Shown: positions 19,263 to 49,782 of the stretch, one piece after another
Layout of the letters: every line of letters starts with the position of its first letter
Position numbering within the stretch: the stretch's first letter is position 1
Assembly (NCBI GenBank): GCA_033549065.1
Contig: JAWSUE010000008.1
Span: 1 to 64,000, forward strand
DNA length: 64,000 bases
Source of the DNA: Bacillota bacterium
Lineage (GTDB): Bacteria; Bacillota; Dethiobacteria; DTU022
Direction: 5' to 3'
Notes under the pieces: generated by a model
Database searches by the model: none
What the model was told of the DNA's origin: nothing
What the model saw: only the letters and a program-made list of their open reading frames with translations
Translations under genes and position numbers: made by a program

Positions 19263-19378
19263 CCTGTTTCGTCAGCCAGGCTGTCCTAGCCTTTTCTCAT
19301 CCGGCCGTAGACCCTTGGCTTTGCGCTCCTGCCTTTCGACAGGGATGCCTTTGTCGGTCAGGTTCTCAAGCAAACAGG
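19263..19378 (-). promoter_or_regulatory. Class I cyclic di-GMP riboswitch (GEMM-I)
   Basis: Read on the minus strand, a P1 stem CCTGTTT/AAACAGG closes the element. Inside are the conserved core GGCATCCC, the GAAA tetraloop (CTGTCGAAAGGCAG), then GAGCGCAAAGCC and a second stem-loop GGCTAGGACAGCC carrying the tetraloop-receptor side. The GCAAAGCC block next to a GAAA-capped hairpin is the hallmark of GEMM-I (Rfam RF01051). It lies 78 bases before the start of the gene at 17740-19185. No clear terminator hairpin follows P1, so the output could be translational. The rest of the 19186-19525 gap is AT-rich with nothing else recognised. Confidence 0.85.
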
Positions 19379-22024: not shown

Positions 22025-23749
22025 TTATTTAACTTTTAGCTTCTTAACAAGGAGTCCGCTTCCGGTTAGGAGTGCTCCCAGTGATATGATAGTGAACAGC
22101 ACACCTCCGGTTGAAGGAGTTGCCAGCGGAGCTTCCGGAGCGAGAACGATCATTTGTTCTTCCTCCGGTTCAGGTTCGACTTCGGGTTCTTCGAGTTCTA
22201 CTTCAATTTCTTCATCCTGGACGTCTCCATCACCGTCTCCGTCTCCATCACCGTCACCGTCTCCGTCTCCATCACCGTCACCGTCTCCATCACCGTCGCC
22301 GTCTCCATCACCGTCACCGTCTCCATCGCCATCGCCGTCTCCATCACCGTCTCCGTCTCCATCGCCGTCTCCGTCGCCATTACTATTATCGGTTTGGTTG
22401 GTGATAACAATTGTAACTTCGTTTTCTTCTTCAGTTAACTCAAAGGGTTCGTCAGGGTTGATGCTGATAAAAGTGTATTCTTCATGTTCAACTTCGGTTA
22501 CTATGTATTCTACATCGAACCTCAGACCGTCTGAGTAGCCTAGGACCGCCGGGTTATTCACACTGAAGGTAATCTCTTCATCTTCGAAATCTCCACCATT
22601 TAGCAGAGCCGTAAATTCAACATCGCTGTCTTCAATGGATATGCCTTCAGCATCGAGCAGAACTTTCTCGATTATCAACCGCGGCCGTGGCGTGTTGGTT
22701 ACTATGATGGTTACAGTGTTGTTTTCGGCTGTTGTCAAATCAACTATTCCGTCTTCCGGATCCAGGGTGACTTCATAGCCTTCTGCATTCATTTCAACAA
22801 GTTTGTATTCTTTCAGGAGTAAGCCATCAACTGAAGTTGACCCTTCCCCGTTAACAACATTTACTTCCACGCCTTCCCTGACCAGTTCATCGGTCTCGGC
22901 GTCATATATATTGAAGATAAATGTCTTGTTGGATGGAATCGTTTCTTCATCATCTGCCTCGGCTTTGACCAACTTTTCGATGATCAGCGAACCGCGTTCT
23001 ATTTCCTGGTTAACAATGGTTACTGTAATATAATTGCTCCCTTCGATTAGAGTAACCGATGTTTGGGAAATGCTGACAAATTCATAATCAGCATGTTCTA
23101 CTTCTTCTATTGTGTATTCAACTTCGAACTCCAGGTCATCATCTAGGCCGAATTCTTTCGGATTATTTACGCTGAAAGAGAAAGTTTCTCCGCTTTCCCC
23201 GAACGCACCACCGTTGATGATAAATTCAAACTCAACGTCGCTGTTCAGTACCTCTTCTCCTTCTACATCAAGAAGTTCTTTTTCGATGGTCAGCATAGGG
23301 TCAATAACTTCGGTACCGGGGCAGTAATCAGAAATCACCAGACCTCCACCAGGTCCTTTTTCCCCTCCGAATAATTCTATTGATGCTGTCAACTCATATA
23401 CATCAAAATAGGGGGTAATAAAATGCCATACTTCAGCATTTAAAGGCTCTACAGGTTGATAAGTTCCATTTCCTGATCCGCTCAGGGTTATAACAGCGTT
23501 GGTTGAATCACCTTTTGTGCTGAATATCCAGTGGATCCAGCCTTCACCATTATCAGGGCGGCCTCCTTCACCGGCTTTACTGCAGTCAATTGAGTCTTTA
23601 CCTCGTCCATCCCATTCTTCAGAGTAGGTTGGCTCTCCGCCATTTTCGATCTGGGCCAGTGCGGCCAGAGGAAGTAAGAGCATGATAAGAGCAACAGTAA
23701 CTGCAAAAAAAGCCATTAGCTTTTTATTCTTTAATATTGAGGTTTTCAT
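22025..23749 (-). CDS. Surface protein with DUF5979/Cna_B-like domains, (GD)n linker and PSTGG tail
   Basis: A signal peptide (FFAVTVALIMLLLPLAALA) is followed by an N-terminal domain containing WDGRGKDSIDCSKAGEG and GWIHWIF, shared with the gene at 26567. Three beta-sandwich repeats of about 90-100 residues follow, starting 'LTIEKELLD', 'LIIEKLVKA' and 'LIIEKVLLD', each ending with 'VTIVNQ' or 'VTNT'. These look like DUF5979/Cna_B-type stalk domains. A Gly-Asp repeat of about 50 residues leads to PSTGG, a hydrophobic stretch and a basic tail. It is probably covalently attached to the wall by a sortase not seen here. The start has GGGAGG upstream. Confidence 0.85.
   Translation of the reverse strand: MKTSILKNKKLMAFFAVTVALIMLLLPLAALAQIENGGEPTYSEEWDGRGKDSIDCSKAGEGGRPDNGEGWIHWIFSTKGDSTNAVITLSGSGNGTYQPVEPLNAEVWHFITPYFDVYELTASIELFGGEKGPGGGLVISDYCPGTEVIDPMLTIEKELLDVEGEEVLNSDVEFEFIINGGAFGESGETFSFSVNNPKEFGLDDDLEFEVEYTIEEVEHADYEFVSISQTSVTLIEGSNYITVTIVNQEIERGSLIIEKLVKAEADDEETIPSNKTFIFNIYDAETDELVREGVEVNVVNGEGSTSVDGLLLKEYKLVEMNAEGYEVTLDPEDGIVDLTTAENNTVTIIVTNTPRPRLIIEKVLLDAEGISIEDSDVEFTALLNGGDFEDEEITFSVNNPAVLGYSDGLRFDVEYIVTEVEHEEYTFISINPDEPFELTEEENEVTIVITNQTDNSNGDGDGDGDGDGDGDGDGDGDGDGDGDGDGDGDGDGDGDGDGDGDGDGDGDGDVQDEEIEVELEEPEVEPEPEEEQMIVLAPEAPLATPSTGGVLFTIISLGALLTGSGLLVKKLKVK
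22221..22378. repeat. Short tandem repeat encoding Gly-Asp
   Basis: Six-base units coding Gly-Asp (plus strand TCNCCR in varied order) run for about 158 bases inside the surface gene, with third-base changes that form larger repeated blocks of 12-18 bases. Unit changes of six bases would lengthen or shorten the linker without a frameshift. Confidence 0.9.
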
Positions 23750-26566: not shown

Positions 26567-28909
26567 TTACTTTCCCTTAAGCTTTCTCAGAATAATTCCT
26601 CCACCTGTAAACAGGAAGCTGAGCGAGAATAAGGGGATGAGGTTTCCACTGGATTCGGGAACCTGCTCCGGACGTTCCGGTTCAATAACCAACTCGCCTT
26701 CACCGGGTTCAGTGCCAGGCTCTTCCGGTTCAACAGTTACTTCTTCTTCCGGTTCTTCTTCAGGCTGAGTCTGCGGGGTTTCCTGGGCTACGGTAATTTC
26801 ACCTTCGTCTTCACCCTCATCTTCGCCTTCGTCTTCACCCTCATCTTCGCCTTCGTCTTCACCCTCATCTTCACCTTCGTCTTCACCCTCATCTTCGCCT
26901 TCGTCTTCACCCTCATCTTCGCCTTCGTCTTCGCCCTCATCTTCGCCTTCGTCTTCGCCCTCATCTTCGCCTTCGTCTTCACCTTCGTCTTCGCCTTCAC
27001 CAGTATCTTGTAGTCTATTAAGTACAATAACTGTTATTTCGAATTCATCATCTAAATCTTTAAGCGTGAATGTCGAAGGGGTTATACTTACTAAATCATA
27101 ATCTGAGTGATCTTCTTCTGTAACTGTGTATTCTTCATCAAAGCGTAATCCATCAGAGTAGCCTAAGGTGATTGGGCTGGTATTAACACTGATAGTAATC
27201 TCTTCATCGACAAACGATCCACCGTTTAATAATACAGTAAACTCCTCATCCGGATCCCCATCATCACCTTCAAGTTCTTTTACAATATTAAGTATAGGTC
27301 TTGGAGTATTAGTAACATTGATAGTAACTTCATTTTCACCCTGAGTAAGATCAACAATACCATCAGGGGGATCCAGCGTGTAAGCATACGCAGCGTTACC
27401 CACTTCTACAATTTCATATATTTCCAAAGCTAAACCTTCAACTTTCTCAGAGCCAATACCATCTACAACGTCTACTGTTACTGTACGAACCTTGACTCCT
27501 CCTTGAATATAAATATCAAATGTAAAGGTTTTAGTTGATGGAATTGTTTCTCCTTCTGGATCTTTAATCGCTTTTTGGATGATTATTGAGCCAAGCTCAG
27601 GTTCCTGGTTTACAATAGTTACTGTAATATGATTGTTGCCTTCGGTTAGAGTAACTGATGTTTGGGATATGCTGACAAATTCATAATCATCATGTTCAAC
27701 TTCACTTATGGTATATACAACATCAAACGCCAAGCCGTCGTCAGGACCAAACTCTTTCGGGCTATCGACGCTGAACGTAAATGTTTGTCCGGGATCAAAC
27801 GCTCCACCGCTGATATCAAATTCAAACTCAACGTCGCTGTTTAGTACTGCTACTCCTTCTGAATCGAGCAGTTCTTTTTCGATGGTCAGCATGGGTTCAA
27901 CAACCGCTTCCCCCGGGCAGTAATCAGAGATGACTAAACCACCGCCCCCACCAGCTGTTCCATAGAATGTTAGAACAGCAGTTAACCCATCAATAGGATA
28001 ATATGGTGTGAAAAAATGCCAAGCATTTGATGGTGAATCATAAGGGGTATATTCTCCTGAGCCAGTTCCACCTAATGTAAGTTTTGCTTCAGGATCATCA
28101 GGAAATTCACTATGTGCTGCTGCAAAATTAAAGATCCAATGTATCCAACCTGACCCATCAGTTGGTCTGGGTCCCTCTCCAGCTTTGCTACAATCGAGGG
28201 AATCATCACCCCTTCCATCCCAAAAAACTTCAGAGAGATCATACGTAGTTTGCAAAATCATCGGTGCTGCTTCTACAAAATTGGCAACCAAATCTGCATC
28301 TTCAGCCAGCATTGAATAACTGAAAGATGCACTCGCGCTTACTTCGGTGCCATTTTTAGTCCAGTTTACAAATTCATAGCCTTCATTGGCGCTGGCTGAA
28401 ATATTCACCGATTCACCTTCGGGATAACTACCACTTCCACTAACTGAACCTCCCTCTGAAGGATCGGCAGAAAGAGACAATGTATAAGATTCTACTGTAA
28501 CAGTTTCTTCAGTTTTCGACTCTACTACTTTAAAATTTGCAACAAGGTTAATATCACTTGCTGGCATTATAAAAGTGAGTTCGGGCTTATCCCCGGTTCT
28601 GTCACCTGTCCATTCAACAAATTCAAATCCATCATTTGCAGTTGCTTTAACTGTAACTTCATCATCTTCCTTATATTCACCATCACCTGTGAAAGTTCCA
28701 CTATTTGATGGTTCAACTGTAATATTTACCTTATATGTAGTATCAACCGCTTGAACCTGACTTGCATTTAGATCATTGTTACCGTTATCATCCCCGTTAC
28801 CACCTTCGTCCTGCGCAAGTGCTGCCAGGGGCACCAGCAGCATCATGGCCGCTATCATAAAAGCGACAACCGGCATTAATTTCTTGTGCTTGATTCGAAA
28901 AGCTTTCAT
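26567..28909 (-). CDS. Large surface protein with InlB-like repeats, DUF5979-like domains and (GEDE)n linker
   Basis: Signal peptide (VVAFMIAAMMLLVPLAALA), then two bacterial repeat domains of the Flg_new_2/InlB B type (VEPSNSGTFTGDGEYKEDD; SADPSEGGSVSGSGSYPEG). Then comes the domain shared with the gene at 22025 (FWDGRGDDSLDCSKAGEG, GWIHWIF), three 'IEKELLD/IIQKAIKD/IVKELEG' beta-sandwich repeats, and about 16 tetrapeptides of Gly-Glu-Asp-Glu. The end is PESSGNLIPLFSLSFLFTGGG plus a basic tail. It is a paralogue of the 574-residue protein with two extra domains. The acidic linker may bind calcium or repel the wall. The start has GGGAGG upstream. Confidence 0.86.
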   Translation of the reverse strand: MKAFRIKHKKLMPVVAFMIAAMMLLVPLAALAQDEGGNGDDNGNNDLNASQVQAVDTTYKVNITVEPSNSGTFTGDGEYKEDDEVTVKATANDGFEFVEWTGDRTGDKPELTFIMPASDINLVANFKVVESKTEETVTVESYTLSLSADPSEGGSVSGSGSYPEGESVNISASANEGYEFVNWTKNGTEVSASASFSYSMLAEDADLVANFVEAAPMILQTTYDLSEVFWDGRGDDSLDCSKAGEGPRPTDGSGWIHWIFNFAAAHSEFPDDPEAKLTLGGTGSGEYTPYDSPSNAWHFFTPYYPIDGLTAVLTFYGTAGGGGGLVISDYCPGEAVVEPMLTIEKELLDSEGVAVLNSDVEFEFDISGGAFDPGQTFTFSVDSPKEFGPDDGLAFDVVYTISEVEHDDYEFVSISQTSVTLTEGNNHITVTIVNQEPELGSIIIQKAIKDPEGETIPSTKTFTFDIYIQGGVKVRTVTVDVVDGIGSEKVEGLALEIYEIVEVGNAAYAYTLDPPDGIVDLTQGENEVTINVTNTPRPILNIVKELEGDDGDPDEEFTVLLNGGSFVDEEITISVNTSPITLGYSDGLRFDEEYTVTEEDHSDYDLVSITPSTFTLKDLDDEFEITVIVLNRLQDTGEGEDEGEDEGEDEGEDEGEDEGEDEGEDEGEDEGEDEGEDEGEDEGEDEGEDEGEDEGEDEGEDEGEITVAQETPQTQPEEEPEEEVTVEPEEPGTEPGEGELVIEPERPEQVPESSGNLIPLFSLSFLFTGGGIILRKLKGK
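26800..27000. repeat. 12-base repeat encoding Gly-Glu-Asp-Glu
   Basis: About 16 units of 12 bases (plus strand TTCGTCTTCACC/CTCATCTTCGCC) alternate in a 24-base super-repeat, inside the surface gene. Identity between units is high, with alternate CCC and GCC third positions, which suggests recent expansion. Confidence 0.88.
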
Positions 28910-35429: not shown

Positions 35430-36137
35430 TTAACTTATTCCCAGATAAACCTTCTTCATTTCCTCATTTTTCAAAAGCTCTTGGCTGGGACCGGCAAGCG
35501 AAATACGACCATTTTCGAGAACAAAGCCTCTGCTGGCAATCTCGAGGCTTTTTTGCACATTTTGCTCAACAAGCAGAATTGTAATGCCCTGTTTGTGCAG
35601 CGTTTTAATCGCCTCGTAAACAATGTTTACAATGGTGGGCTGCAAACCCAGAGAAGGTTCATCAATCATTAAAAATTTAGGCGCCGACATCAGAGCCCGG
35701 CCAACAACCAGCATCTGCTGTTCTCCCCCGCTAAAGGTTCCTGCCATTTGGCTTTGTCTTTCTTTAAGCTTCGGAAATAGTTCAAACACCCGGTCAAGAT
35801 TTTGCTTAACTTTATTGTTATCACTCTCGATGTAGGCACCGAGTTCCAGGTTTTCTTTAACTGTCATGTAGGGGAAAACCCTTCTGCCTTCAGGAATGTA
35901 GGCAAGACCTTTGGCGACAACCTTGTGAGCCTGCACTCCAACGAGCGATTCCCCTTTAAAAACAATATCGCCGGAGATCACTTTAATTGCTCCAGAAATG
36001 GTCTTCAGGATCGTACTTTTACCAGCCCCGTTAGAACCAACAAGAGCAACAAGTTCGCCCTCTTCAACGGTGAAGGAAACATCCCAGATAACCTGGACCC
36101 CTTTATAGCCAACTGATAATTTTTTAACTTCCAACAT
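35430..36137 (-). CDS. livF: Branched-chain-type ABC transporter ATPase LivF
   Basis: A 235-residue ABC ATPase: Walker A (VGSNGAGKST), signature (TFSGGEQQMLVVGRAL) and Walker B (FLMIDEPSLGLQP). It has the LivF-type marks LSVGYKGVQVIWDVS and YIPEGRRVFPYMTV. The start at the ATG 36137 has GGAGGAAAAAG upstream; the longer frame is not needed. It overlaps livG by 14 bases. It powers the importer encoded with livG, livH, livM and livJ. Confidence 0.94.
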   Translation of the reverse strand: MLEVKKLSVGYKGVQVIWDVSFTVEEGELVALVGSNGAGKSTILKTISGAIKVISGDIVFKGESLVGVQAHKVVAKGLAYIPEGRRVFPYMTVKENLELGAYIESDNNKVKQNLDRVFELFPKLKERQSQMAGTFSGGEQQMLVVGRALMSAPKFLMIDEPSLGLQPTIVNIVYEAIKTLHKQGITILLVEQNVQKSLEIASRGFVLENGRISLAGPSQELLKNEEMKKVYLGIS

Positions 36138-36873
36138 TTGCTTTTTCCTCCTTCCCGAGGTAAGCATTGATCACTCGTTCATTTTCTGAGATCTCTTCTG
36201 GCGTGCCTTCAGCGATGATCTGTCCTGTATCGAGTACAATGATTTTTTTACAGAGACTCATAATTACCCGCATCACGTGTTCAATTATAACCAGGGTGAT
36301 GCCCATTTCTTCATTTACTTTACGCAAGACCTGAAGGCATTTTTCAATTTCGGTAAGGTTAAGACCGGCCATCAGTTCATCCAAAAGAAGCATTTTCGGT
36401 TTTGTTGCCAAGGCTGTTGCCAGACACAACTGCTTTTGGCGCGCTGATGTAAGACTGCCGGCAATCTTTTTGTGATCATCTTCAAAACCGGTTAACTCAA
36501 GTAGATGTTCAATTTCAAAAGGTTGATAAGAACATTTGGAAAAGCAGGATTTGCCAGCTACGGCGCCCATGACAACATGCTCGTAAACTGTTAATTCCCT
36601 GAAAACCTTGACCACCTGAAAAGTTCTGGCGATCCCCTTTTTGCAGATCAGAGAAGGTTTGAGCTTTTCAATCCGTTCGCCCTCGAATTTAATGCTGCCT
36701 GCAGTGGGCTGGTGTTCACCGGCGATCATTCCAAAAGTAGTGGTTTTGCCCGCACCATTAGGCCCGATAATACCTGTAATGCTACCTTTTTCTACCGAAA
36801 AATCAATATTGTTAACCGCAGTCAACCCACCAAACTGTTTTTTTAATCCTTTAACCTCGAGTATGTTTTCCAT
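36124..36873 (-). CDS. livG: Branched-chain-type ABC transporter ATPase LivG
   Basis: A 249-residue ABC ATPase with Walker A (IIGPNGAGKTT), a signature-like stretch (SLTSARQKQLCLATAL, in which the canonical LSGGQ is replaced by LTSAR), and Walker B (LLLDELMAGLN). The replaced signature is typical of LivG-type proteins. The ATG overlaps the livM stop (TAATG), indicating translational coupling. It is the partner ATPase of LivF. Confidence 0.94.
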   Translation of the reverse strand: MENILEVKGLKKQFGGLTAVNNIDFSVEKGSITGIIGPNGAGKTTTFGMIAGEHQPTAGSIKFEGERIEKLKPSLICKKGIARTFQVVKVFRELTVYEHVVMGAVAGKSCFSKCSYQPFEIEHLLELTGFEDDHKKIAGSLTSARQKQLCLATALATKPKMLLLDELMAGLNLTEIEKCLQVLRKVNEEMGITLVIIEHVMRVIMSLCKKIIVLDTGQIIAEGTPEEISENERVINAYLGKEEKANVGS

Positions 36874-37853
36874 TACTGTGACCTCCTGAAGCGAATTCTT
36901 TTGGCCATCCCCATCAAACCTTTGGGTTCGAAAACCAAAATGGCAATCAGCGCGGCAGCCCAGATAATATATCTAAGCTCTGGAGCGTACCTGAAGAGTT
37001 CGAGAACAAAGGTAACCACTGCAGCACCGAGGACTGGACCAATCAAGGTGCCAGCACCACCGACCAGAGTCATGATTACCACCATTTCTGAAGTAAACCA
37101 GGCGAACTGCGACGGGTGAAGCAGCAGAAAAAAGTGGGCAAAAAGCGATCCGGCAAGCGCTGCCAGGGCTCCACTGATGCTGAATGAAAGAACCTTGTAG
37201 AACGAAGTATTGACTCCCAGCGATTCCGCCAGGTCTTGATCCTCGCGGATCGCCACGAAACGTTTACCGATTTCAGTTTTATAAATCAGGTAGTATAAGA
37301 AAAGAACTACCAAGATTGTAAAGATTAAAACAAAATAAAAGTATACATTCATCGAGGAAAAATCTATCGGTCCGATGTTCGGAGGAGGCTGTACGCCTCT
37401 TAAACCCATCGGCCCCCCTGTGAGCTGGTTGGTATTCAGAAACACCAGGTAAACAAAATGAGCCAGAAAAAATGTTGTAACAGCAAAGTAAGAACCCCTT
37501 AATCTTAAGGCAGGAGCCCCGACCAATACCGCAATTATAAAGCCGACAATAATAGTAATGACAAATGCCAGCCAGAAATTAAGGCCAGCCATCAAGGTCA
37601 ATAGCGCTGAAGTGTAGGCACCCAGGCCGAAAAAAGCGCCCTGTGAAAATGACAGCTGGCCGGTATAGCCAAAAATAAGGTCATAACTGGCTGTCAGCAT
37701 CGCATATAACAAAGCCAGGGTAGCTACATAAATCACATAGCGGGAAAAAAACACCGGCACAAAACTTATTGCCACTACTACAACCAGTGCAGCTATCCAC
37801 ATTCGGTAATTTATTTTATTTGTAATGGTAGAATTACTTTTCGCCAGTTCCAT
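36873..37853 (-). CDS. livM: Branched-chain-type ABC permease LivM
   Basis: About 326 residues, eight or more hydrophobic segments, with the LivM marks YDLIFGYTGQLSFSQGAFFGLGAY near the start and GGAGTLIGPVLGAA near the end. The ATG at 37853 has GAGGTG six bases upstream. It forms the membrane channel with LivH. Confidence 0.93.
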   Translation of the reverse strand: MELAKSNSTITNKINYRMWIAALVVVVAISFVPVFFSRYVIYVATLALLYAMLTASYDLIFGYTGQLSFSQGAFFGLGAYTSALLTLMAGLNFWLAFVITIIVGFIIAVLVGAPALRLRGSYFAVTTFFLAHFVYLVFLNTNQLTGGPMGLRGVQPPPNIGPIDFSSMNVYFYFVLIFTILVVLFLYYLIYKTEIGKRFVAIREDQDLAESLGVNTSFYKVLSFSISGALAALAGSLFAHFFLLLHPSQFAWFTSEMVVIMTLVGGAGTLIGPVLGAAVVTFVLELFRYAPELRYIIWAAALIAILVFEPKGLMGMAKRIRFRRSQ

Positions 37854-37922
37854 AATTTCACCTCTCATATCACATTATCAAACAGCTCATAGCCTACTCT
37901 GACAGACTATGTAGCCCGAAGA

Positions 37923-38777
37923 TTATTCTTTCCGCGAGCCAAACAGACCCTGCGGCCTAAAAATTAGGACGATCAAGAGAATAATAAAAGCATAGCCATG
38001 CTGGTATGATGTAGAGATATAGCCTGCCCCCAAGCTTTCCAGTACACCTAGCCCCATACCGGCAATTAAAGTACCACCGAGGCTTCCTTTACCACCCAGG
38101 ATAACAACTACAAGAGCTTTTAATAAAGGCAATTCACCCATCATCGGATAAACAGCAAATACAGGTGCAATCAAGGTTGCCGCTATTCCGGACAGTGCTC
38201 CTCCCATGGCGAATATAATCGAAAAAACCTTATTTATATCAATACCCATCCAGGGCGCTACTTCGATATCCTGGGTTGCTGCCCTGATTGCTTTTCCGGT
38301 TTTGGTTTTTTTCAAAAACAAGTTGATAACAACAAAAAGAATAATAACAACAACAATAATCATCAATCTCTGGTAAGAAACACCCACGCCGAAAATGTTT
38401 ACTACTCCTTTTATGTAGTGTTCGAGATTCAAGGATTTTGCGGTCCAGAGATAGATAGCCAGGTTGGCCAGCAGGAAAAAGAGAGCTATCGCACATAAAA
38501 GCTGAATGTGGTCTGTTCTGCCCCGCCAGCGACGGTAGAGCAATTTTTCAAAACTGTAAGCCATAATTGCCCCAACCAGCGCTGCAACAAGCATCGCGAT
38601 GTACCAGGGTATGCTTAATGAAGTAATGCAAAAATATACTACGTAGGCTGCAATTACATAAATACCGCCCTGGCTGAAATCCGGGATGTCGGTGATACTC
38701 CAGATCAGGTTCAGACCTAAAGCTATCAGGGCGTAGATTGAGCCTAAAACCAGCCCGTTTATTATGTATAATTCCAA
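37923..38777 (-). CDS. livH: Branched-chain-type ABC permease LivH
   Basis: A permease with about eight hydrophobic segments and the LivH marks SIYALIALGLNLIWSITDIPDFSQG and LGGKGSLGGTLIAGMGLGVLES. The likely start is the TTG at 38777, with AAAGGAGAG six bases upstream; the ATG eight codons earlier would include that site. It forms the membrane channel with LivM. Confidence 0.92.
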   Translation of the reverse strand: MELYIINGLVLGSIYALIALGLNLIWSITDIPDFSQGGIYVIAAYVVYFCITSLSIPWYIAMLVAALVGAIMAYSFEKLLYRRWRGRTDHIQLLCAIALFFLLANLAIYLWTAKSLNLEHYIKGVVNIFGVGVSYQRLMIIVVVIILFVVINLFLKKTKTGKAIRAATQDIEVAPWMGIDINKVFSIIFAMGGALSGIAATLIAPVFAVYPMMGELPLLKALVVVILGGKGSLGGTLIAGMGLGVLESLGAGYISTSYQHGYAFIILLIVLIFRPQGLFGSRKE

Positions 38778-38853
38778 ACTGAACTCTCCTTTCTGTAACA
38801 TAGAGGTAAGTTCTTAAAACCTTTAGATGGCAGGCTGTATAATCAAGGAAGAA

Positions 38854-38889
38854 CAAACGCAGGTACAAATAGTGCAAAACCTGCGTTTG
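38854..38889 (-). terminator. Intercistronic hairpin between livJ and livH
   Basis: CAAACGCAGGT and its exact complement enclose a 14-base loop, 78 bases past the livJ stop. On the minus strand TTCTTCCTT follows. A partial terminator or 3'-end stabiliser here would let the binding protein be made in excess over the permease. Confidence 0.6.
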
Positions 38890-38967
38890 CTCTTCAATGT
38901 ATCTGTTGCTTAATCCAATATCAGGTGTATAGATTTATAGTTCTACGTTCATTGTCAGGTGATCCAA

Positions 38968-40149
38968 TTATTTAACCAAAACCATATCTCCATCTTCCCA
39001 CCTGATCAGATAAGGCACATAGAATCCCTGGTTCTGATAGCCATCGAAATCCTTGAATTCTGTAAAGCCGGCAAGCGTTTCATAAGTTCCGGCTTTCAGA
39101 GCATCCCTGATGTCTTTCGGGTCCAGTGACTGGGCTCTTGTTATTGCATCCGCTAAAACATACACCCCGTCGTAGGCAAAGATGATCGCGTAATGTAACG
39201 GTGCATTATACCTGGATAATACTGCAGCTTCCAGTTCGGCAGGCGCTTCCCCGTAAAGGGCAATAGCGTAGGTTCCTTCCAGCACTTCAGCTCCGGCCAG
39301 ATCCAGCATTTCGTACGATGCCATTTCTTCCGCCCCATAGAAAGCAACATCCGGAATCATGCCCATTTCATAAGCCTGCTCCAGGAGCAACGCACCTTCA
39401 GTCGATGTGCCTACATAGCCAACCATGTCAGGTTCAAGCTGACTGATTTTGCTGAGCAAAATTGTATAGTCGGTTGTGCCGCGCTCAAAGTACTCTTCTG
39501 CCACGGTTTCCACACCAAATTCGATCAGCCCTTCCTGATGAGTTTCAACCCAGGAACGGCCGTAATCGTCATTTACAGCTACAAAAGCAATAGTAGCCGG
39601 TTGGATAGCTTCAAAAATTGGTCCTGCGGCCAGTGGGCTCATCAAGGCCATGTCAGGCCTCATCCTGAAAAAGTATGGATGTCCGGGCTTGGTAACGGCT
39701 TCTGCTGCACATTCAATGGTGATACCCGGCACTTCATATGAATCGGCCAAGGGAGCAATAGCCATGCAGCAGGAACTGCAGTGGTCACCGAGGAATGCTA
39801 CTACTCCATCTTCCAGAATCATTTTATGAACCGAAGCAACCGACTGGGTAGGTTCACAGACACTGTCATAGCGAACAATCTCGATCGTATATACCTCTCC
39901 ATCGATTACTATTCCCTGGGCGTTTACTTCGTCTACAGCAATTTCAACGCCCCTCAAACCGTTGGTGCCAAACTCAGCGGCCGGTCCAGTGAATGGTGCA
40001 ACGTAACCGATCTTAATTACATTATCTCCGGTAACTGTTTCCAGTTCGGTATCAGTGTCTGGAACGCCGCTATCAGTCTGGCAGCCAAGCACCATAAAGA
40101 TTACCAGCAGCATAATCAAACATAATAGAAATATTTTTGAAATCCTCAA
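38968..40149 (-). CDS. livJ: Branched-chain-type ABC substrate-binding lipoprotein LivJ
   Basis: A 393-residue periplasmic-binding-type protein with a lipobox (IFMVLGC) near residue 23 and the LivJ-like marks IKIGYVAPFTGPAAEFGTNG and VAFLGDHCSSCCMAIAPLADS. It would sit on the outer face of the membrane and feed ligand to LivHM. The family transports leucine-type amino acids, but several branches carry amides, urea or other amines, so the substrate must not be taken as leucine. The start is TTG with GGAGG ten bases upstream. It heads the importer operon. Confidence 0.93.
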   Translation of the reverse strand: MRISKIFLLCLIMLLVIFMVLGCQTDSGVPDTDTELETVTGDNVIKIGYVAPFTGPAAEFGTNGLRGVEIAVDEVNAQGIVIDGEVYTIEIVRYDSVCEPTQSVASVHKMILEDGVVAFLGDHCSSCCMAIAPLADSYEVPGITIECAAEAVTKPGHPYFFRMRPDMALMSPLAAGPIFEAIQPATIAFVAVNDDYGRSWVETHQEGLIEFGVETVAEEYFERGTTDYTILLSKISQLEPDMVGYVGTSTEGALLLEQAYEMGMIPDVAFYGAEEMASYEMLDLAGAEVLEGTYAIALYGEAPAELEAAVLSRYNAPLHYAIIFAYDGVYVLADAITRAQSLDPKDIRDALKAGTYETLAGFTEFKDFDGYQNQGFYVPYLIRWEDGDMVLVK

Positions 40150-40599: not shown

Positions 40600-41244
40600 C
40601 TAACCAATCAGCTTAATGATCTTATTTACGCCCTCCCCGGCATTCTCCGCGTAAGCATCGGCGCCGATTTTTTCCGCCCAGCGTACGGTAACCGGTGCGC
40701 CTCCGACAATGGTTTTGTACTTGCTCTTCAAACCTTCCTTGACTAGGGCATCTTCCAGCTCTTTCTGTTTGACCATCGTCGTAGTTAAAAGAGCGCTGGT
40801 GCCGATAACATCAGCCTTGAACTCTTCGGCCTTGGCAATAATGTCCAGCGTTGGCACATCGCGGCCCAAATCCAAGATATTAAAGCCATTTGCTACGAGC
40901 AACGATACAACAATTGCCTTACCGATATCGTGGATATCTCCCTCTACCGTAGCAATGAGCACGTTGCCCTTGTTACTTTCCGCTCCACCGGTAATGGCGG
41001 TATTGAGAATCTCCGTAGCTTTTTTTACCACTTCCGCGACCTGGATCAGTTCGGGTAAAAAGAGTTCGCCGCATTCGAACATGTCGCCGACCTGCTTGAT
41101 CCCCACCACGTATCCTTCATTAATTACCTGAAGAGGATCCATTTTCTGTTCCAACGCCTGGCGGGCTAACGCTTCAGCACCGGCTTCGTCTCCTCCAACC
41201 ACTGATTCGATAATTTTTTTAATAAAATCAATGTTATCTGCCAT
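40600..41244 (-). CDS. mtbC: Corrinoid protein of methylamine methyltransferase system (MtbC-like)
   Basis: A 214-residue two-domain protein. The N-terminal helical cap (residues ~1-90, EGYVVGIKQVGDMFECGELFLPELIQVAEV) and the Rossmann-like B12-binding domain (GDIHDIGKAIVVSLLVANGF, with the His ligand in DxHxxG) carry a corrinoid. It accepts a methyl group from MtbB and passes it to a second methyltransferase (MtbA/MtsA-like or tetrahydrofolate type), which is not in the window. The start ATG at 41242-41244 has GGAGG six bases upstream. It overlaps a UAA four codons beyond the mtbB UAG. The presence of the corrinoid partner next to mtbB confirms the methylamine assignment. Confidence 0.93.
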   Translation of the reverse strand: MADNIDFIKKIIESVVGGDEAGAEALARQALEQKMDPLQVINEGYVVGIKQVGDMFECGELFLPELIQVAEVVKKATEILNTAITGGAESNKGNVLIATVEGDIHDIGKAIVVSLLVANGFNILDLGRDVPTLDIIAKAEEFKADVIGTSALLTTTMVKQKELEDALVKEGLKSKYKTIVGGAPVTVRWAEKIGADAYAENAGEGVNKIIKLIG

Positions 41245-41255
41245 TAATTAGCCTC

Positions 41256-42641
41256 CTAACGCCACCCGGTTTTTCTTAAAAATCGGCTTACAGAATTTAT
41301 TTCAAGGTCCAGCAACTGCGCAATGCGAAACTTTGCTTCAATCCCTCTCGACTGCTCACCCATCCCGCTATAAACCGTAGCAATATCTAAGGCCTGGCGC
41401 ACTTCATTCATGATCACTTCGTTAGAAAGATCGGTTACCGAAACTTTTAACTTTCCGGCTACATATTCCTTGGCTTCGTTTAGACGCATCTTCTTCGACA
41501 TTTGCATCCGGGCCACCAGATCTCCGGCAGTCCGTATTCCACCCATGCCAGAAGCATGCATATGAGTTAAAGCCATCCCGGCAGGATCGCCGTAGCCTAC
41601 CTATAACCCGTCGAGTTTACCGACTTCAGCCATGGCCGTTGAAACTCGCGATACACAATCGATCGGCGGGGTCATTACCAGCGGTACCGCCCCGACCCCC
41701 ATGCCAACGTTAGCGTGAACAGGGATATTTGCCGCCTCTACACAGGCCTTGCAAAAAGTAACGGCTCTTCCTAAGTTCCAGGGGAACGAACGGCTGCTGT
41801 TAGTGTTAACCACGGCGCCAAAAATACTGGCCCCCGCTTTTTCGGCCAGTTTAACCTGCTGGTGCGGGTAAAGACCGGCCAGGCGCACCCCGTCGTAAGA
41901 CAGCTGTCCGTGAAAACCGAGGACAAATTCACCGGCCATGCCGATTTCGATCGCCATATCGGGATACTTGGCCCGCAACTGTTCACAGGCCAATAACGTT
42001 GCCTGAAACTCGGCATCACCGGCCGCTGCTGTGGTATCAAAGTTGATCCCGTCGGCCCCGGCTTCATAAACGCCGCTGCCGACAAAAACCATATCTTTAA
42101 CAGCATACTCAACCGCTTCTTCCTGGGCCGCCCTTGCTTCGGCAATCTTGCCAGCCGGCAAAAGTTCAGCGGCATTGGGGCAGGGTCCGTCAGGCTGAGT
42201 GTATAGCGGCAGGTTTGGCATCGCCCCGTAGAAGAGCGGCGCTGTTGTAACTAGGGAAGTTTCAGCAACCGCGTACTGCTCCTCGGGCACAATCATCTTG
42301 ATCGGTTTGAAACTGTAATGAACATAAGCCAGCTCCAGCGTGTCAGCAGCAAAAGCCCGCTCGTAAATCTGCATAATCTGGGGCATGCCGATCGGAATCC
42401 CTAGACGGGTGATTTTAAGGGTTCCTGAATCATAAGTTAAGATCAGCTCGTTGCCATGCTGCACGCTGACAAATTTTTGCGGACGGCAGCAGATATCGAC
42501 AATACAGTCGATTTCATCTGTAAAAAGAGGCTCGATCTTGCCGCGTTTAACAGCATCCTCCACTCCCTCCTGAACATCTGCTTTTACTTCTTCTTCACTC
42601 ATCGTTACAAAGTATCCATCACCCATTCTGGTTACAATCAA
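41256..42641 (-). CDS. mtbB: Dimethylamine methyltransferase MtbB with in-frame UAG (pyrrolysine, codon 347)
   Basis: Two open frames, 42641-41604 and 41600-41256, are joined by a single UAG at 41601-41603 in the same frame, so the whole chain is 461 codons. Around the UAG the residues are KLDGL-[UAG]-VGYGDPAGM, which matches the pyrrolysine site of archaeal MtbB (DGI-Pyl-IGVGDPLGM). Other shared marks are RMGDG at the N-terminus, LFYGAMPN, DGINFDTTAAAGDAEF, YDGVRLAGLYPHQQ and AGDLVARM. It should transfer a methyl from dimethylamine to the corrinoid protein. Start is TTG, with AGAGGTG seven bases upstream. The pylTSBCD genes are not in the window. Confidence 0.93.
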
Positions 42642-42725
42642 TTAAGAACACCTCTTTTACTATCGTTGATATTTAATAACCTAAAATCTGAATTTCACCA
42701 ATGGAATGGCTAAGAAATATATAGT

Positions 42726-42742
42726 GCAATTTTTCTGCCAAG
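42726..42742 (-). promoter_or_regulatory. Sigma-54 promoter for mtbBC
   Basis: On the minus strand TTGGCAG, five bases, TTGC is present with -24 GG and -12 GC spaced by exactly ten bases. Initiation would fall about 70 bases upstream of mtbB. This is an unusually good match to the consensus. Confidence 0.85.
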
Positions 42743-42822
42743 TCCTGAAAAATAGAAATTGCTTTAGTTAGCGTAGGTGTTGAGAATAAAGATATGATAT
42801 AAATTCGAGCGGGGATGAATAA

Positions 42823-42836
42823 TCGGAGATCTCCGA
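42823..42836. promoter_or_regulatory. 14-bp palindrome, candidate activator site
   Basis: TCGGAGATCTCCGA is a perfect 14-base palindrome lying about 85 bases upstream of the mtbB sigma-54 promoter. That distance is typical for an enhancer-like binding site of a sigma-54 activator. Only one full copy was seen in the region by eye. Confidence 0.6.
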
Positions 42837-42863
42837 CATATAACCGGACATAATAAAAACTTA

Positions 42864-42887
42864 TGCTAAGTCATTTATGACTTAGCA
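42864..42887 (-). terminator. Terminator after the sigma-54 activator gene
   Basis: TGCTAAGTCAT, two bases, ATGACTTAGCA, an 11-bp stem, followed on the minus strand by TAAGTTTTTATTATG. It lies 23 bases past the activator's stop. Confidence 0.75.
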
Positions 42888-42909: not shown

Positions 42910-44598
42910 TTATTTAGCATTATTGTCATTAAGATATTTGCGGATTTTCCTGATAGCACTGCTCTGGCTGATTCCAAGAGAACTGGCCACTTTGTAAGAA
43001 CTGCCGTGTTTTTTGTAACTGTTTGTCACAAGCTCCCGTTCTACCGCTTCGAGAGTAGTTTCAAGCCTGGAATTTTCCAGCGGGAAAAATAACTTTTTAC
43101 TGTGCTGGGTGATATGAGGGGGCAGATGTTCTATCTTAATTTCTCTGGTCGTAACAGTGACGGTTAATAACTCTGTCAGATGCTTAAGTTCCCTTACATT
43201 ACCCGGCCAGTTGTAATTAACCAGAACATTTATAGCATCGGTTGTGAGTTTGATTTTACGGCTGTGTTTTTCAGAAAAAATTCCTAAATAGTGATTGAGT
43301 AAGGTCGGAATATCTGTTTTACGCTCGCGCAGAGGGGGAATTTCGATTGACAGCACACAAAGCCTGTAATAAAGATCCTCACGAAAAGCCCCTTCGCCAA
43401 TCATCCTTTTCAGGTCGCGGTTTGTTGAAGCAATAATCCGAACATTAACTTCCTCAACAGCGCTGGATCCGATTGGGGTAAATTTCTGCTCTTCAATAAC
43501 CTGCAAGAGTTTCGGCTGCAAAGAAAGTGGTACCTCTCCAATTTCATCTAAAAAAATTGTGCCCCTGTCGGCAAGTGAGAACCGTCCAATTTTGCCCTTC
43601 GGGCTTGCGCCGGTAAAAGCGCCGGACTTGTAACCAAAAAGTTCGGATTCAATTAATTCCTGCGGCAGCGCTGCGCAGTTGATTTTTAAAAACTGCTTGT
43701 TCCGCCTGCTGCTTAAGTCATGCACCTGCCTGGCAAAAAGATCCTTGCCGGTTCCAGTTTCACCTTGCAGCAAAACGACGCTTTCAGTCTGGGCAATACG
43801 CCTGGTCATCTGCAATAGCTCTGCAATCGGTGAATCTCCGGCATACACCAACTGACTGCTTTCGACTTCAGCGCTTTTTTTCATGCAAAGTCCTGTCTGC
43901 TTATTATGCACTTTCTGCTTAATATCATGATAACTTTTTTTCATATCCTCAAGAGCAGTAACATCCCTGGAGTTGCAAATGACCATCTCAATTTCATTTT
44001 TATTATTAAAAATAGGGGTGGCAGTGAGCATCAGTTTTTTCCCGATCCCGGTTTCTTGATCAATCGTAATCTTTTTCTTTTCCCGCAGGACCATCGGTGT
44101 TACTGCCGGATAATAAATACCTCTTTCCTCGAGTTCCCAAACGCTCTTTCCAATCATCTCCGATACCGGTATGCCGTAGTGACTTTCGCTTACCGGATTG
44201 GCGAAAATTATTATTCCCTTACCGTCGGTGATAAAAACCTCGTCGCAGGAACCATTAATTATCGTTTCATAAAAATTGATCTTCTTTTTTAAATCCTTAA
44301 TGGATTCGTTTACCTGAGGTTCACCAATCTGTTCTTTATCTTGTAGAATAGCCAGATAAATAAAAGGTAGTTCCTGGGCATGTCGAATTTCACTTACTCT
44401 AACCAGATAAGTTATTTTTTGGCCTTTAGATAAGAATGAGTTTCCATCCTGCATTAATTCTCCAGGCCAGATTTTGCTCCAACTGTCGCCAATGGTTATA
44501 GAATAATCTGCATTACCACTTTTTTGTACACCACAAACATACCCTTCCTGATTGAAGAGAACAGCATAAAAAGAATTTTTCTGTTCTTTCCTTTTCAT
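42910..44598 (-). CDS. Sigma-54-dependent transcriptional activator with PAS domain
   Basis: A 562-residue protein in three parts. A PAS domain is seen at residues ~105-225 (DEVFITDGKGIIIFANPVSE, NSRDVT). The AAA+ sigma-54 core follows (Walker A GETGTGKDLFARQ, GAFTGA loop in YKSGAFTGASPKG, Walker B in GTIFLDEIGEV). A C-terminal Fis-type helix-turn-helix ends the chain (VASSLGISQSSAIRKIRKYL). It should sense a metabolite or redox state via PAS and open sigma-54 promoters. Both mtbB and livJ have such promoters, so it is the likely regulator of the whole island. The ATG at 44598 has GGAG eight bases upstream. Confidence 0.93.
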   Translation of the reverse strand: MKRKEQKNSFYAVLFNQEGYVCGVQKSGNADYSITIGDSWSKIWPGELMQDGNSFLSKGQKITYLVRVSEIRHAQELPFIYLAILQDKEQIGEPQVNESIKDLKKKINFYETIINGSCDEVFITDGKGIIIFANPVSESHYGIPVSEMIGKSVWELEERGIYYPAVTPMVLREKKKITIDQETGIGKKLMLTATPIFNNKNEIEMVICNSRDVTALEDMKKSYHDIKQKVHNKQTGLCMKKSAEVESSQLVYAGDSPIAELLQMTRRIAQTESVVLLQGETGTGKDLFARQVHDLSSRRNKQFLKINCAALPQELIESELFGYKSGAFTGASPKGKIGRFSLADRGTIFLDEIGEVPLSLQPKLLQVIEEQKFTPIGSSAVEEVNVRIIASTNRDLKRMIGEGAFREDLYYRLCVLSIEIPPLRERKTDIPTLLNHYLGIFSEKHSRKIKLTTDAINVLVNYNWPGNVRELKHLTELLTVTVTTREIKIEHLPPHITQHSKKLFFPLENSRLETTLEAVERELVTNSYKKHGSSYKVASSLGISQSSAIRKIRKYLNDNNAK

Positions 44599-44666
44599 CA
44601 AAATGTCTCCATGATTAACTGATCATACAAGATCAGTCAAAGTGTAGTTGCCCAAGAGTCGATCAG

Positions 44667-46514: not shown

Positions 46515-47429
46515 CTACCGGGTATTTAACTTTTCTTTTACCGCCCTGAATCCGGAAATAATATCGAGCAACTCTTCGGTTATTGCCGCCTGCCGTTCCT
46601 GCTGGAATGATGTCTTCAGTTGATCGAGCCGTTCATTGATGTTTTTTTCAGCCGCCTGCATCGCTGCCAGGCGGCTTGTATTTTCTGCGGCAAGAGAGAG
46701 GGCACAAGCACGGTAAAGCGAAACAAAAAAATACTGGCGCAGCAGGGAAGATAACAGCCGGGAGGGTTTCATGGTATAGGTGGGCAGCGATCTCGATTCC
46801 CACTCAAGCCTGGTATCCCGCAGCTGGGAAAGATTTACCGGAAGCATAACTTCCGCCTGTGGACTGAATCCACCGGTAACCGGACGATTGTAGAAGAGCA
46901 AAACCTTTTCAGCACCATCACTGAAACGCCACTTTTCAATCTGCTCCAGAAGCTGCTGGATGAAAGGGGTTATGGCCGAAATCGAGGTAGGCATATGAAA
47001 ACTACGGACAAGATTGGCCCCGGTAGCACTGACCCTGGTGATAACCTGCTCGCCTGCGGCTGCAACCATAGCACTGGGGGTAAGATGAAAACTCCCGGTT
47101 TCCCCGTCAGCTTCACCGCTGTATTCTTCGAGAGCAAAAGTGACGATCTGCTCGTTGAAACGCCCGGCCAGGCCGTGGTCTGAACCGAATATCAGCATCA
47201 GGGTTGGGATTTCCCGGCCATCTTTCCGGGCTACCGGAGTTTCCATCTCTGAAGAAAGTACAACGGATAGGCCCAATTCAACCGTATGGTAGTAGTCATC
47301 GAGTGATTCTGCTGCTTTTTCGTACTGGCGCACACTTGTTGCCGCCAGCGCTTTCATCGTTCTGACGATTGATGAGAGATCCTCTCCGCTGGAGATCTGT
47401 TTCTGCAGGGTTTCTAATGTTGAGCTCAA
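46515..47429 (-). CDS. atpG: F-type ATPase gamma subunit (N-ATPase)
   Basis: A 304-residue gamma-like subunit. It has the usual long N-terminal helix (LEDLSSIVRTMKALAATSVRQYEKA, written in the chain as SGEDLSSIVRTMKAL) and the C-terminal helix with NINERLDQLKTSFQQERQAAITEELLDIISG. It is the central rotor shaft, and last in the operon. A slightly divergent sequence relative to ordinary gamma subunits is expected for N-ATPases. It lies two bases after the atpA stop. Confidence 0.9.
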   Translation of the reverse strand: MSSTLETLQKQISSGEDLSSIVRTMKALAATSVRQYEKAAESLDDYYHTVELGLSVVLSSEMETPVARKDGREIPTLMLIFGSDHGLAGRFNEQIVTFALEEYSGEADGETGSFHLTPSAMVAAAGEQVITRVSATGANLVRSFHMPTSISAITPFIQQLLEQIEKWRFSDGAEKVLLFYNRPVTGGFSPQAEVMLPVNLSQLRDTRLEWESRSLPTYTMKPSRLLSSLLRQYFFVSLYRACALSLAAENTSRLAAMQAAEKNINERLDQLKTSFQQERQAAITEELLDIISGFRAVKEKLNTR

Positions 47430-47432
47430 GTA

Positions 47433-48989
47433 TTAATCCTCCGATTCAGGACTCAAAGATCTTTTTGCCACAGCTATAATAGCATCCTGGTCTTCATCTT
47501 CAAGTACTTCTCCATCTTCAATCTTCTGACAGATTCCCGAGAGTTCCTCAAGCATCGCTTTCCTGATTTTCTCCTCGGCCTGCGGTATTGCCTCGACTTC
47601 TATATCGTCAAAGAGTCCTTCAGTAACTGAAAGTAGAACGGCAATCTGCTCGGGGATAGTCAGGGGCTTGAGTTCGGGTTGGGTGAGCACTTTTCGGACC
47701 CGCCTGCCCCGTTCGATAGTTTCCCTGGTTTTTTCATCAAGGCGGGTTCCAAAGCGGGCAAACATCTCCAGTTCCTCGAACTGGGCATAGGAGAGGCGAA
47801 GGTCGCCGGTTACAGTCCGGTAAGCCGGCAGTTGGGTTTTGCCGCCTACCCTTGATACAGATTTTCCCACATCAACTGCCGGGAGATGATTACGCTGAAA
47901 CAGTTCTGGAGACAGGTAGATCTGCCCATCGGTAATGGAAATCAGGTTGGTCGGGATATAAGCTGAAATATTTTGCGCCTGGGTTTCGATGATTGGCAGG
48001 GCGGTTAGGGAACCTCCACCGAATTCTTCCCGAAGATGGGTTGCCCGCTCTAGAAGTCTGGAATGGAGGTAGAATATATCACCGGGATAGGCTTCCCGCC
48101 CCGGTGGACGTTCCAGCAGCAGGGAGAGTTCACGGTAGGATCGGGCATGCAGGGTTAAATCATCGTAGACAATGAGGACATCCCGACCCTGTTCCATGAA
48201 ATATTCGGCAATGGTCGTGGCAGCAAAGGGGGCAACAAATCTGAGGCCTGGCGGACCGTCACCAGAAGCAACAACCACGATTGAATAATCCATCGCCCCG
48301 TATTTTCTTAGCTGGGCAATAAATTTCGCTACATCGGCACCCTGCTGGCCAATTGAACAGTAAACACAGATTACGTCTTTATCTGCCTGATTGATAATAG
48401 TATCAAGGGCAATAGCCGTCTTGCCGATCTGCCGGTCGCCCAGGATTAGCTCACGCTGTCCTCGTCCAACCGGGATCAGAGCATCTACAACCTTTAATCC
48501 GGTTTGCAGGGGTTCGGTCACCGGATCGCGGGACATGATCGGCGGGGCTTCACTTTCAACCGGACGCCTTTCCTTGAAATTAACTGGCCCCCGGTTATCA
48601 AGGGGTTTTGCTGCCGCATCGATCACCCGCCCGAGGAGATCTTCTCCAACCGGAATATCGACAACCCGGCCTGTCCTGCGTACCCGGTCGCCGGAAACAA
48701 TGTTGTCGGAACTTCCGAGCATAATTACCCCAACTTCATGGGGATCCAGGTTAAAGGCTATACCGGTTACCCCACCGGGAAATTCTACGAGCTCTTCTGC
48801 CTGAACACCAGCCAGCCCGGACACCCGGGCAATACCGCTGCCGATGGATATGACCGTTCCGATTTCTTCCACTTTCGGGTCGACAGGTAGATTATCGAGA
48901 ACATCCTGCATAGCAGATTCACCGGAATCAAATGCACTATAGAGGGTGGAAAGCAGTGTTTTCTGATCAGGTTTTTTCTGTGCCACCAC
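47433..48989 (-). CDS. atpA: F-type ATPase alpha subunit (N-ATPase)
   Basis: A 518-residue alpha subunit with the P-loop [19 protein letters not shown], the [11 protein letters not shown] stretch and [23 protein letters not shown]. The likely start is the GTG at 48989 ([10 protein letters not shown]), with GGGGAGG six bases upstream; the longer frame overlaps atpF out of its product. It forms the catalytic hexamer with beta. Its sequence lacks some of the N-terminal delta-binding features, fitting a complex without delta. Confidence 0.94.
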
Positions 48990-49782
48990 CCTGCACCTCC
49001 CCTGCCTTCTCCGTAAGAGCAGTCTGATCAAGTTCTTTGAGCAGTTCCTCCTCCACATCTTCCAGGTAGCTGTCAATATTCCAGGCTATGCGGTAGCCTT
49101 CTGCTTCCAGTTCAAGGCCGCAGATCAAATCGGGGTCTTCTTTGACCGATATCTGCAGTTTTTCTGTTTGCTTTGTCAACATTTTCTTAAGCGACCTTTC
49201 CAGGCCGTCCATTTTCTTTTCCGGTATTTTAAAAGCACTGCGTAAATTTATTTTCTTTTCGGCAATAACAGCTTCTTTCAGGGTTGAAACTTCATCAGAG
49301 GACATGGTTTCAAATTTGCGGAGAAAAAGGTCCAGGGTTAACTCTTCCAACTTTGTATCAGCCAGATCCTGCAGACAGCGGCGGGCAATGGTGCAAGCCT
49401 GGCGGCCGATTTTTCTGCGCAGTTCACTGATAAAACTCTCTTTCTCTCTTTCGAGTGCCTCTTCCCAACGCTGCTTGGTTTCGTCCACCTCGCTGCGAGC
49501 CTGATCCAGCAGTTTTCGTTTTTCCTGATCTACAGCCTGACGGGCTTTTTCAAGTATTTCTTCTTCTTTATTATCCAATTCCTCACTCTTTTGACGAAAC
49601 GCCTTTGCCTCTTTTTCGGCATTAGTTTTTTGAGTTTCCGCCTCTTTTTCCCTCTGCACTATCTTACCTTCACGATCATCCATGGCCTTGATAATCGGCC
49701 CATAAAGAAAATAGCGCAGCAAAAAGACAAGCACCAGAAAGTTTACAATCTGAAATATTACCGTATACCAGTCTATAATCAT
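48967..49782 (-). CDS. atpF: F-type ATPase b subunit, long form (N-ATPase)
   Basis: A 271-residue protein: N-terminal membrane helix ([25 protein letters not shown]), a very long charged helix, and a C-terminal part ([21 protein letters not shown]...[17 protein letters not shown]) that resembles the delta subunit domain. Long b subunits with a delta-like end are characteristic of N-ATPases, which have no separate delta gene; none is seen here. It overlaps the start of atpA by 23 bases. Confidence 0.88.

Follow-up and report, generated by a model that had tools for sequence, protein, structure and literature searches.

The window analysed here is a stretch of 64,000 nt from a Bacillota bacterium whose genome is a 2.39 Mb draft (61 contigs, 98% complete), and it carries a predicted dimethylamine:corrinoid methyltransferase gene, mtbB, on its minus strand (Table 1). 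With TAG translated as a residue, the frame is open from a TTG start codon at 42641 to a terminal TAG, and encodes 461 residues with pyrrolysine (Pyl) predicted at residue 347, in the context VGKLDGL-O-VGYGDPAGM; positions 41601-41603 read CTA on the plus strand, and hence TAG on the minus strand. The first-pass annotation of this DNA had described two open frames joined in phase by that single UAG, with no frameshift or deletion, and both points stand, since the joined frame of 462 codons matches the family in full length (positions 5-461 of 463 in Pfam PF09505) and also exceeds the cut-off of NCBIfam TIGR02368. Only one UAG lies inside the frame, at the conserved family position. A search by sequence for a solved MtbB structure found none.

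Table 1. Features at the mtbB locus, numbered from the first base of the window
Feature	Position	Strand	Evidence or remark
mtbB, predicted dimethylamine:corrinoid methyltransferase	41256-42641	minus	PF09505 642.7 bits (cut-off 25); TIGR02368 503.2 bits (cut-off 369.1)
In-frame UAG, predicted Pyl codon	41601-41603	minus	TAG in homologues; full pyl cassette
Rfam PYLIS_2 region, UAG + 97 nt	41504-41603	minus	73.6 bits; gathering score 36
Conserved element GCCGGAGATCTGGT, +76 to +89 nt from UAG	41515-41528	minus	synonymous constraint; possible hairpin; suggestive covariation
Terminal UAG of mtbB	41256-41258	minus	followed by GAG GCT AAT TAA; overlaps Shine-Dalgarno sequence of next gene
MtbC-like cognate corrinoid protein	40600-41244	minus	PF02310 and PF02607; ends in TAG
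Branched-chain-amino-acid-type ABC transporter, downstream of mtbBC	35430-40149	minus	PF13458, PF02653 (two), PF00005 (two)
Sigma-54-type promoter TTGGCAGAAAAATTGCA, upstream of mtbB	42725-42741	minus	one mismatch to consensus
Inverted repeat TGCTAAGTCAT-TT-ATGACTTAGCA	42864-42887		possible activator site or terminator
PAS + sigma-54 activator (AAA+), upstream	42910-44601	minus	PF00158, PF00989; candidate mtbB regulator, same strand as mtbB

The gene adjoining mtbB encodes its B12-binding corrinoid partner, which scores 191.8 bits against the NCBIfam MtbC model, below the cut-off of 350. The sigma-54-type promoter lies 84-100 nt ahead of the mtbB start codon, sites with two or fewer mismatches having a background of 0.037 per kb per strand, and rpoN is present in the genome; together with the PAS/AAA+ gene upstream, this suggests that mtbB may be under sigma-54 control by that activator. 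No promoter of this type was found upstream of the C2 mtbB gene or of pylT. In the closest relatives with enough flanking sequence (L008, L009 and L010), mtbB stands directly behind a UAG-bearing mttB gene, so that the window copy differs in its surrounding gene order; unlike in those relatives, the window copy lies behind the promoter, inverted repeat (42725-42887) and activator gene. Elsewhere the window contains, on its minus strand, a c-di-GMP-I riboswitch (19268-19359, 67.9 bits) and genes for the gamma, alpha and B subunits of an 'alternate' F1F0 ATPase (46515-49782), and there are tandem repeats of 24 bases (26798-26998) and 18 bases (22222-22380) inside open frames.

Conservation of the UAG and the pyrrolysine genes

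Homologous mtbB loci were collected from public genomes of several phyla, and 57 of the 58 cover the UAG site. The codon is TAG in 56 of these, which excludes chance and agrees with the earlier suggestion that DGL-UAG-VGYGDPAGM matches the pyrrolysine position of archaeal MtbB; when 398 genomes of the phylum were searched independently with an HMM, each full-length MtbB match likewise contained one TAG. The single exception (L061, in the Clostridia MAG Soudan_22) carries TTG (Leu) instead of the Pyl codon, which points either to Pyl having been lost recently or to an error in sequencing; this locus is nested among UAG-bearing genes, and a UAG-bearing copy (L032) is present in the same assembly. 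Comparison of the window gene with two 94%-identical homologues gives dN/dS values of about 0.03 for the codons ahead of the UAG and about 0.05-0.06 for those that follow, and purifying selection past the UAG indicates that the downstream segment is translated in frame.

The first-pass annotation had named pylS, pylB, pylC, pylD and a tRNA with anticodon CUA as the genes to be sought, and the lack of any pylS or tRNA-Pyl as grounds for abandoning a pyrrolysine reading. All are present in the genome, on contig C5, where tRNA-Pyl, pylSc, pylB, pylC, pylD and pylSn form one complete cluster in that order. The tRNA-Pyl identified by ARAGORN (72 nt, anticodon CUA, at L005:7200-7271) adjoins pylSc, and each protein scores above its curated cut-off (pylSc, 351.4 bits against 178.15; pylB, 508.1 against 348.2; pylC, 433.8 against 248.3; pylD, 250.4 against 150.05; pylSn, 124.3 against 51.15), PylSc aligning in full length to the solved bacterial PylSc (PDB 3dsq and 2zni). 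Besides the window gene, the genome holds two mtbB and two mttB genes with a single UAG apiece at the family position, as well as RF1 and a RACo-type corrinoid activator; a search of it for an mtmB gene found none. A second RACo-type activator (L202, at C12:72230-73012 of the same genome) has one in-frame TAA inside the match, and is either a broken gene or the product of an assembly error.

The cassette has the same gene order as the pyl systems of Desulfitobacterium hafniense and Acetohalobium arabaticum, an order common to most Gram-positive bacteria (PMC2933860), and there too UAG serves as both Pyl codon and stop. It differs from these systems in containing no methyltransferase gene, the window mtbB being located on a different contig behind its sigma-54-type promoter. 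The similarities to the Pyl-containing MtbB of Methanosarcina (TIGR02368/PF09505) are the full-length family match, the UAG at the family position and the adjacent corrinoid partner, whereas the differences are the bacterial host, the split pylSc/pylSn, the continued use of UAG as a common stop (including at the end of mtbB itself) and the wobble bases of the downstream block, which depart from the Rfam PYLIS_2 consensus. The mtbB site adds another bacterium to the known Pyl-using group, bacterial use of pyrrolysine being already established. Its description as rare in bacteria holds at the level of the phylum, with the MtbB family in 16 of 398 sampled genomes, but not within the organism's own family, where pylSn is present in 15 of 36 sampled genomes. 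Two members of that family (G015 and G023) have two pylSn matches per genome, possibly reflecting two pyl systems or contamination.

Synonymous constraint around the mtbB UAG

Bacterial mtbB genes are under extreme synonymous constraint around the UAG. In an alignment of the 100 nt past the UAG from 42 genes, the element GCCGGAGATCTGGT is nearly fixed, its synonymous positions included. Constraint was measured relative to the codon usage of each individual gene in a non-redundant set of 48 mtbB genes with the UAG, and the most constrained codons clustered at the UAG, in the one that immediately precedes it and in those 25-28 codons downstream. The first six ranks are taken by GGA at +26 (45/48, with 12.4 expected), TTG at -1 (31/41, 6.4 expected), CTG at +28 (40/46, 14.2 expected), GGC at +20 (36/46, 15.1 expected), GCC at +25 (31/39, 12.2 expected) and GGC at +2 (35/48, 15.6 expected), and the mean constraint z is 4.10 near the UAG compared with 1.31 elsewhere (p = 2e-5). 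The window gene itself has TTA, not TTG, right before the UAG. Search bias is unlikely, because the scan peptides do not span the block and an independent set of 26 genes found by HMM agrees, with GGAGATCTGG in 20 and TTG before the UAG in 20. The 13-mer CCGGAGATCTGGT occurs only three times in the genome, once per mtbB gene, and is shared by the C2 and window copies even though their MtbB proteins are just 52% identical; L061, whose codon at the site is TTG and not UAG, retains the greater part of the block as GCCGGAGATTTGG. We found no description of such bacterial constraint in the literature that we searched, which covered few subscription journals.

The element can fold as a hairpin, GCCGG[AGAU]CUGGU, with an energy in the window of -12.2 kcal/mol when its flanks are included (z -2.4). 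The third positions of the GGA and GAT codons fall in the loop and scarcely vary, while those of codons 372 and 375 lie opposite one another in the stem. Among 47 genes this wobble pair is C-G in 36, U-G in three, U-A in three and A-U in one, and is unpaired in four. A permutation test for pairing gives p = 0.0005, and the covariation score is unreached in 500 shuffles and drops when the partner is slid; four double changes lie on separate branches of the protein tree, for which a tree-aware sign test gives a median p of 0.125. With one wobble pair and four double changes behind it, the covariation is suggestive of a hairpin, but is not proof.

The region also matches Rfam PYLIS_2 (RF02509), the predicted mtbB pyrrolysine insertion sequence, whose second helix spans the element. 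The window keeps 7 of 11 pairs of the first helix and 6 of 7 of the second, and across the 42 genes helix 1 is poorly kept and helix 2 mostly kept. As a whole fold, the 100 nt region is no better than shuffles (z -0.76), and PYLIS_2 was dropped as a candidate in that form; the window match is largely sequence conservation. The Rfam consensus at the position of the element is GCuGGaGAcCUuGug, and the loop and wobble bases that are fixed in bacteria are less conserved in it. The archaeal side of this comparison consists of that consensus and one locus, the mtbB gene L055, which shows no pairing at the 372/375 wobble site. Have and colleagues noted that a fairly canonical structure can be drawn for mtbB, unlike that of mtmB (PMC3639795), and PYLIS covariance has been reviewed as limited (PMC2933860).

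At a similar distance from the UAG, mtmB and part of mttB show constraint that is weaker than in mtbB. Across nine mtmB genes with a UAG, constraint is highest for TTG at -1 and for two Ser codons (+29 and +23), and further constrained columns lie at +45, +39 and +25. A block in mttB, TTGGCAGGNGCCAA at +70 to +83, is present in 7 of 18 clusters (from Bacillota, Desulfobacterales and Thermoleophilia) and could form a UUGGC[AGGN]GCCAA hairpin, with the AGGU form of the loop in some mttB genes; a regional constraint test near the mttB UAG was not significant (p 0.45). Families that lack the UAG show no constraint peak, with few testable columns near the site.

Probable pyrrolysine insertion and termination at UAG

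Taking the conserved codon and the pyl cassette together, it is very probable that the UAG at 41601-41603 is read as pyrrolysine. PylBCD would make the amino acid, the split PylSc/PylSn would charge tRNA-Pyl(CUA), and this tRNA would compete with RF1 at the UAG, with Pyl inserted; the product would be a Pyl-containing dimethylamine methyltransferase with the MtbC-like corrinoid protein encoded next to it as its partner. More broadly, it may be asked how bacteria with UAG stops in about one-fifth of their genes keep stop and pyrrolysine apart. Studies of archaeal mtmB led to the PYLIS being regarded as dispensable, since Pyl insertion was reduced but not lost when it was removed, and persisted when it was replaced; archaeal insertion does not strictly require it, and the PYLIS of mtmB and mttB was said to have no counterpart in mtbB (PMC2933860); the constraint reported here makes a bacterial element directly testable, and a strong one would help genetic-code expansion.

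We propose, as a tentative reading on which our own opinion is almost evenly divided, that the conserved element and the fixed Leu codon raise Pyl insertion over termination at the mtbB UAG. On this reading, which is slightly less likely than not, a true cis-acting insertion element would be present in bacterial pyrrolysine genes, and by it the ribosome would distinguish a Pyl UAG from the many ordinary stops even within one mRNA. Its proposed make-up is the fixed Leu codon preceding the UAG (in mtbB and mtmB) and an RNA block approximately 70-90 nt after it, the block being GCCGG[AGAU]CUGGU in mtbB, UUGGC[AGGU]GCCAA in some mttB genes and fixed Ser codons in mtmB. Such a hairpin with a conserved loop past a recoded stop codon would resemble the bacterial SECIS of selenocysteine genes by analogy only, and is located farther from the codon (~76 nt); we know of no SelB-like factor for pyrrolysine.

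The fixed nucleotides might instead serve mRNA stability, translational pausing, a DNA-binding site or some other non-decoding role, a doubtful but serious alternative given that L061 retains most of the block without the UAG. A role of this kind accords less well with the clustering of constraint at the UAG in both mtbB and mtmB, the preceding codon included, with the block at a similar distance in some mttB genes, and with the missing peak in UAG-less families, few though the testable columns are there; the 13-mer is also absent elsewhere in the genome, so that no independent role is visible. It is unlikely that the protein contains pyrrolysine but acts on a substrate other than dimethylamine, since TIGR02368 models the dimethylamine enzyme at equivalog level and is matched well above its cut-off, and close relatives carry mtbB directly after a UAG-bearing mttB, even if the corrinoid protein encoded next door scores below the curated cut-off for MtbC and an amino-acid-type transporter follows; dimethylamine is the predicted substrate. 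Insertion of a canonical residue by a generic suppressor or near-cognate tRNA is very improbable, for although readthrough in general requires no pyl genes, tRNA-Pyl(CUA) here adjoins pylSc, and the five UAG-bearing methylamine methyltransferase genes of the genome all have their UAG at the position known for Pyl. A nonsense mutation or assembly error, making mtbB a pseudogene or two genes, might be imagined in a 61-contig draft where UAG is an ordinary stop, but this explanation, like a frameshift, is refuted by the same UAG at nearly all loci of several phyla and in two paralogues, by the downstream dN/dS of about 0.05 and by the complete cassette.

Pyrrolysine would be inserted at mtbB in a genome that also uses UAG as a regular stop. 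The genes ending at 21964, 56737 and 60672 of the window do end in TAG, as the first-pass annotation had observed, and in a 509-kb sample of the genome, on which the stop-codon usage rests, TAG ends 79 of 377 ORFs (21%). There is no sign of UAG avoidance in comparison with four pyl-negative relatives (21-29% of stops, in small samples), nor of an excess of backup stops within five codons, which follow 27% of UAG-ended genes and 31% of those with other stops (p 0.49). Prat and colleagues reportedly found in 2012 that pyl-decoding bacteria have about 20% UAG stops, a share equal to that seen here, and that Acetohalobium arabaticum makes Pyl with trimethylamine only. Conditional pyrrolysine use in this bacterium is also described in a review (PMC5370412).

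The terminal TAG of mtbB, a point missed by the first-pass annotation, would be read as a stop like those of other genes, and one mRNA would therefore carry both meanings of UAG. With the codons GAG GCT AAT TAA following it, a leak would add just four residues (Pyl-Glu-Ala-Asn), and the terminal TAG is kept in four of the five closest relatives (L009-L012).
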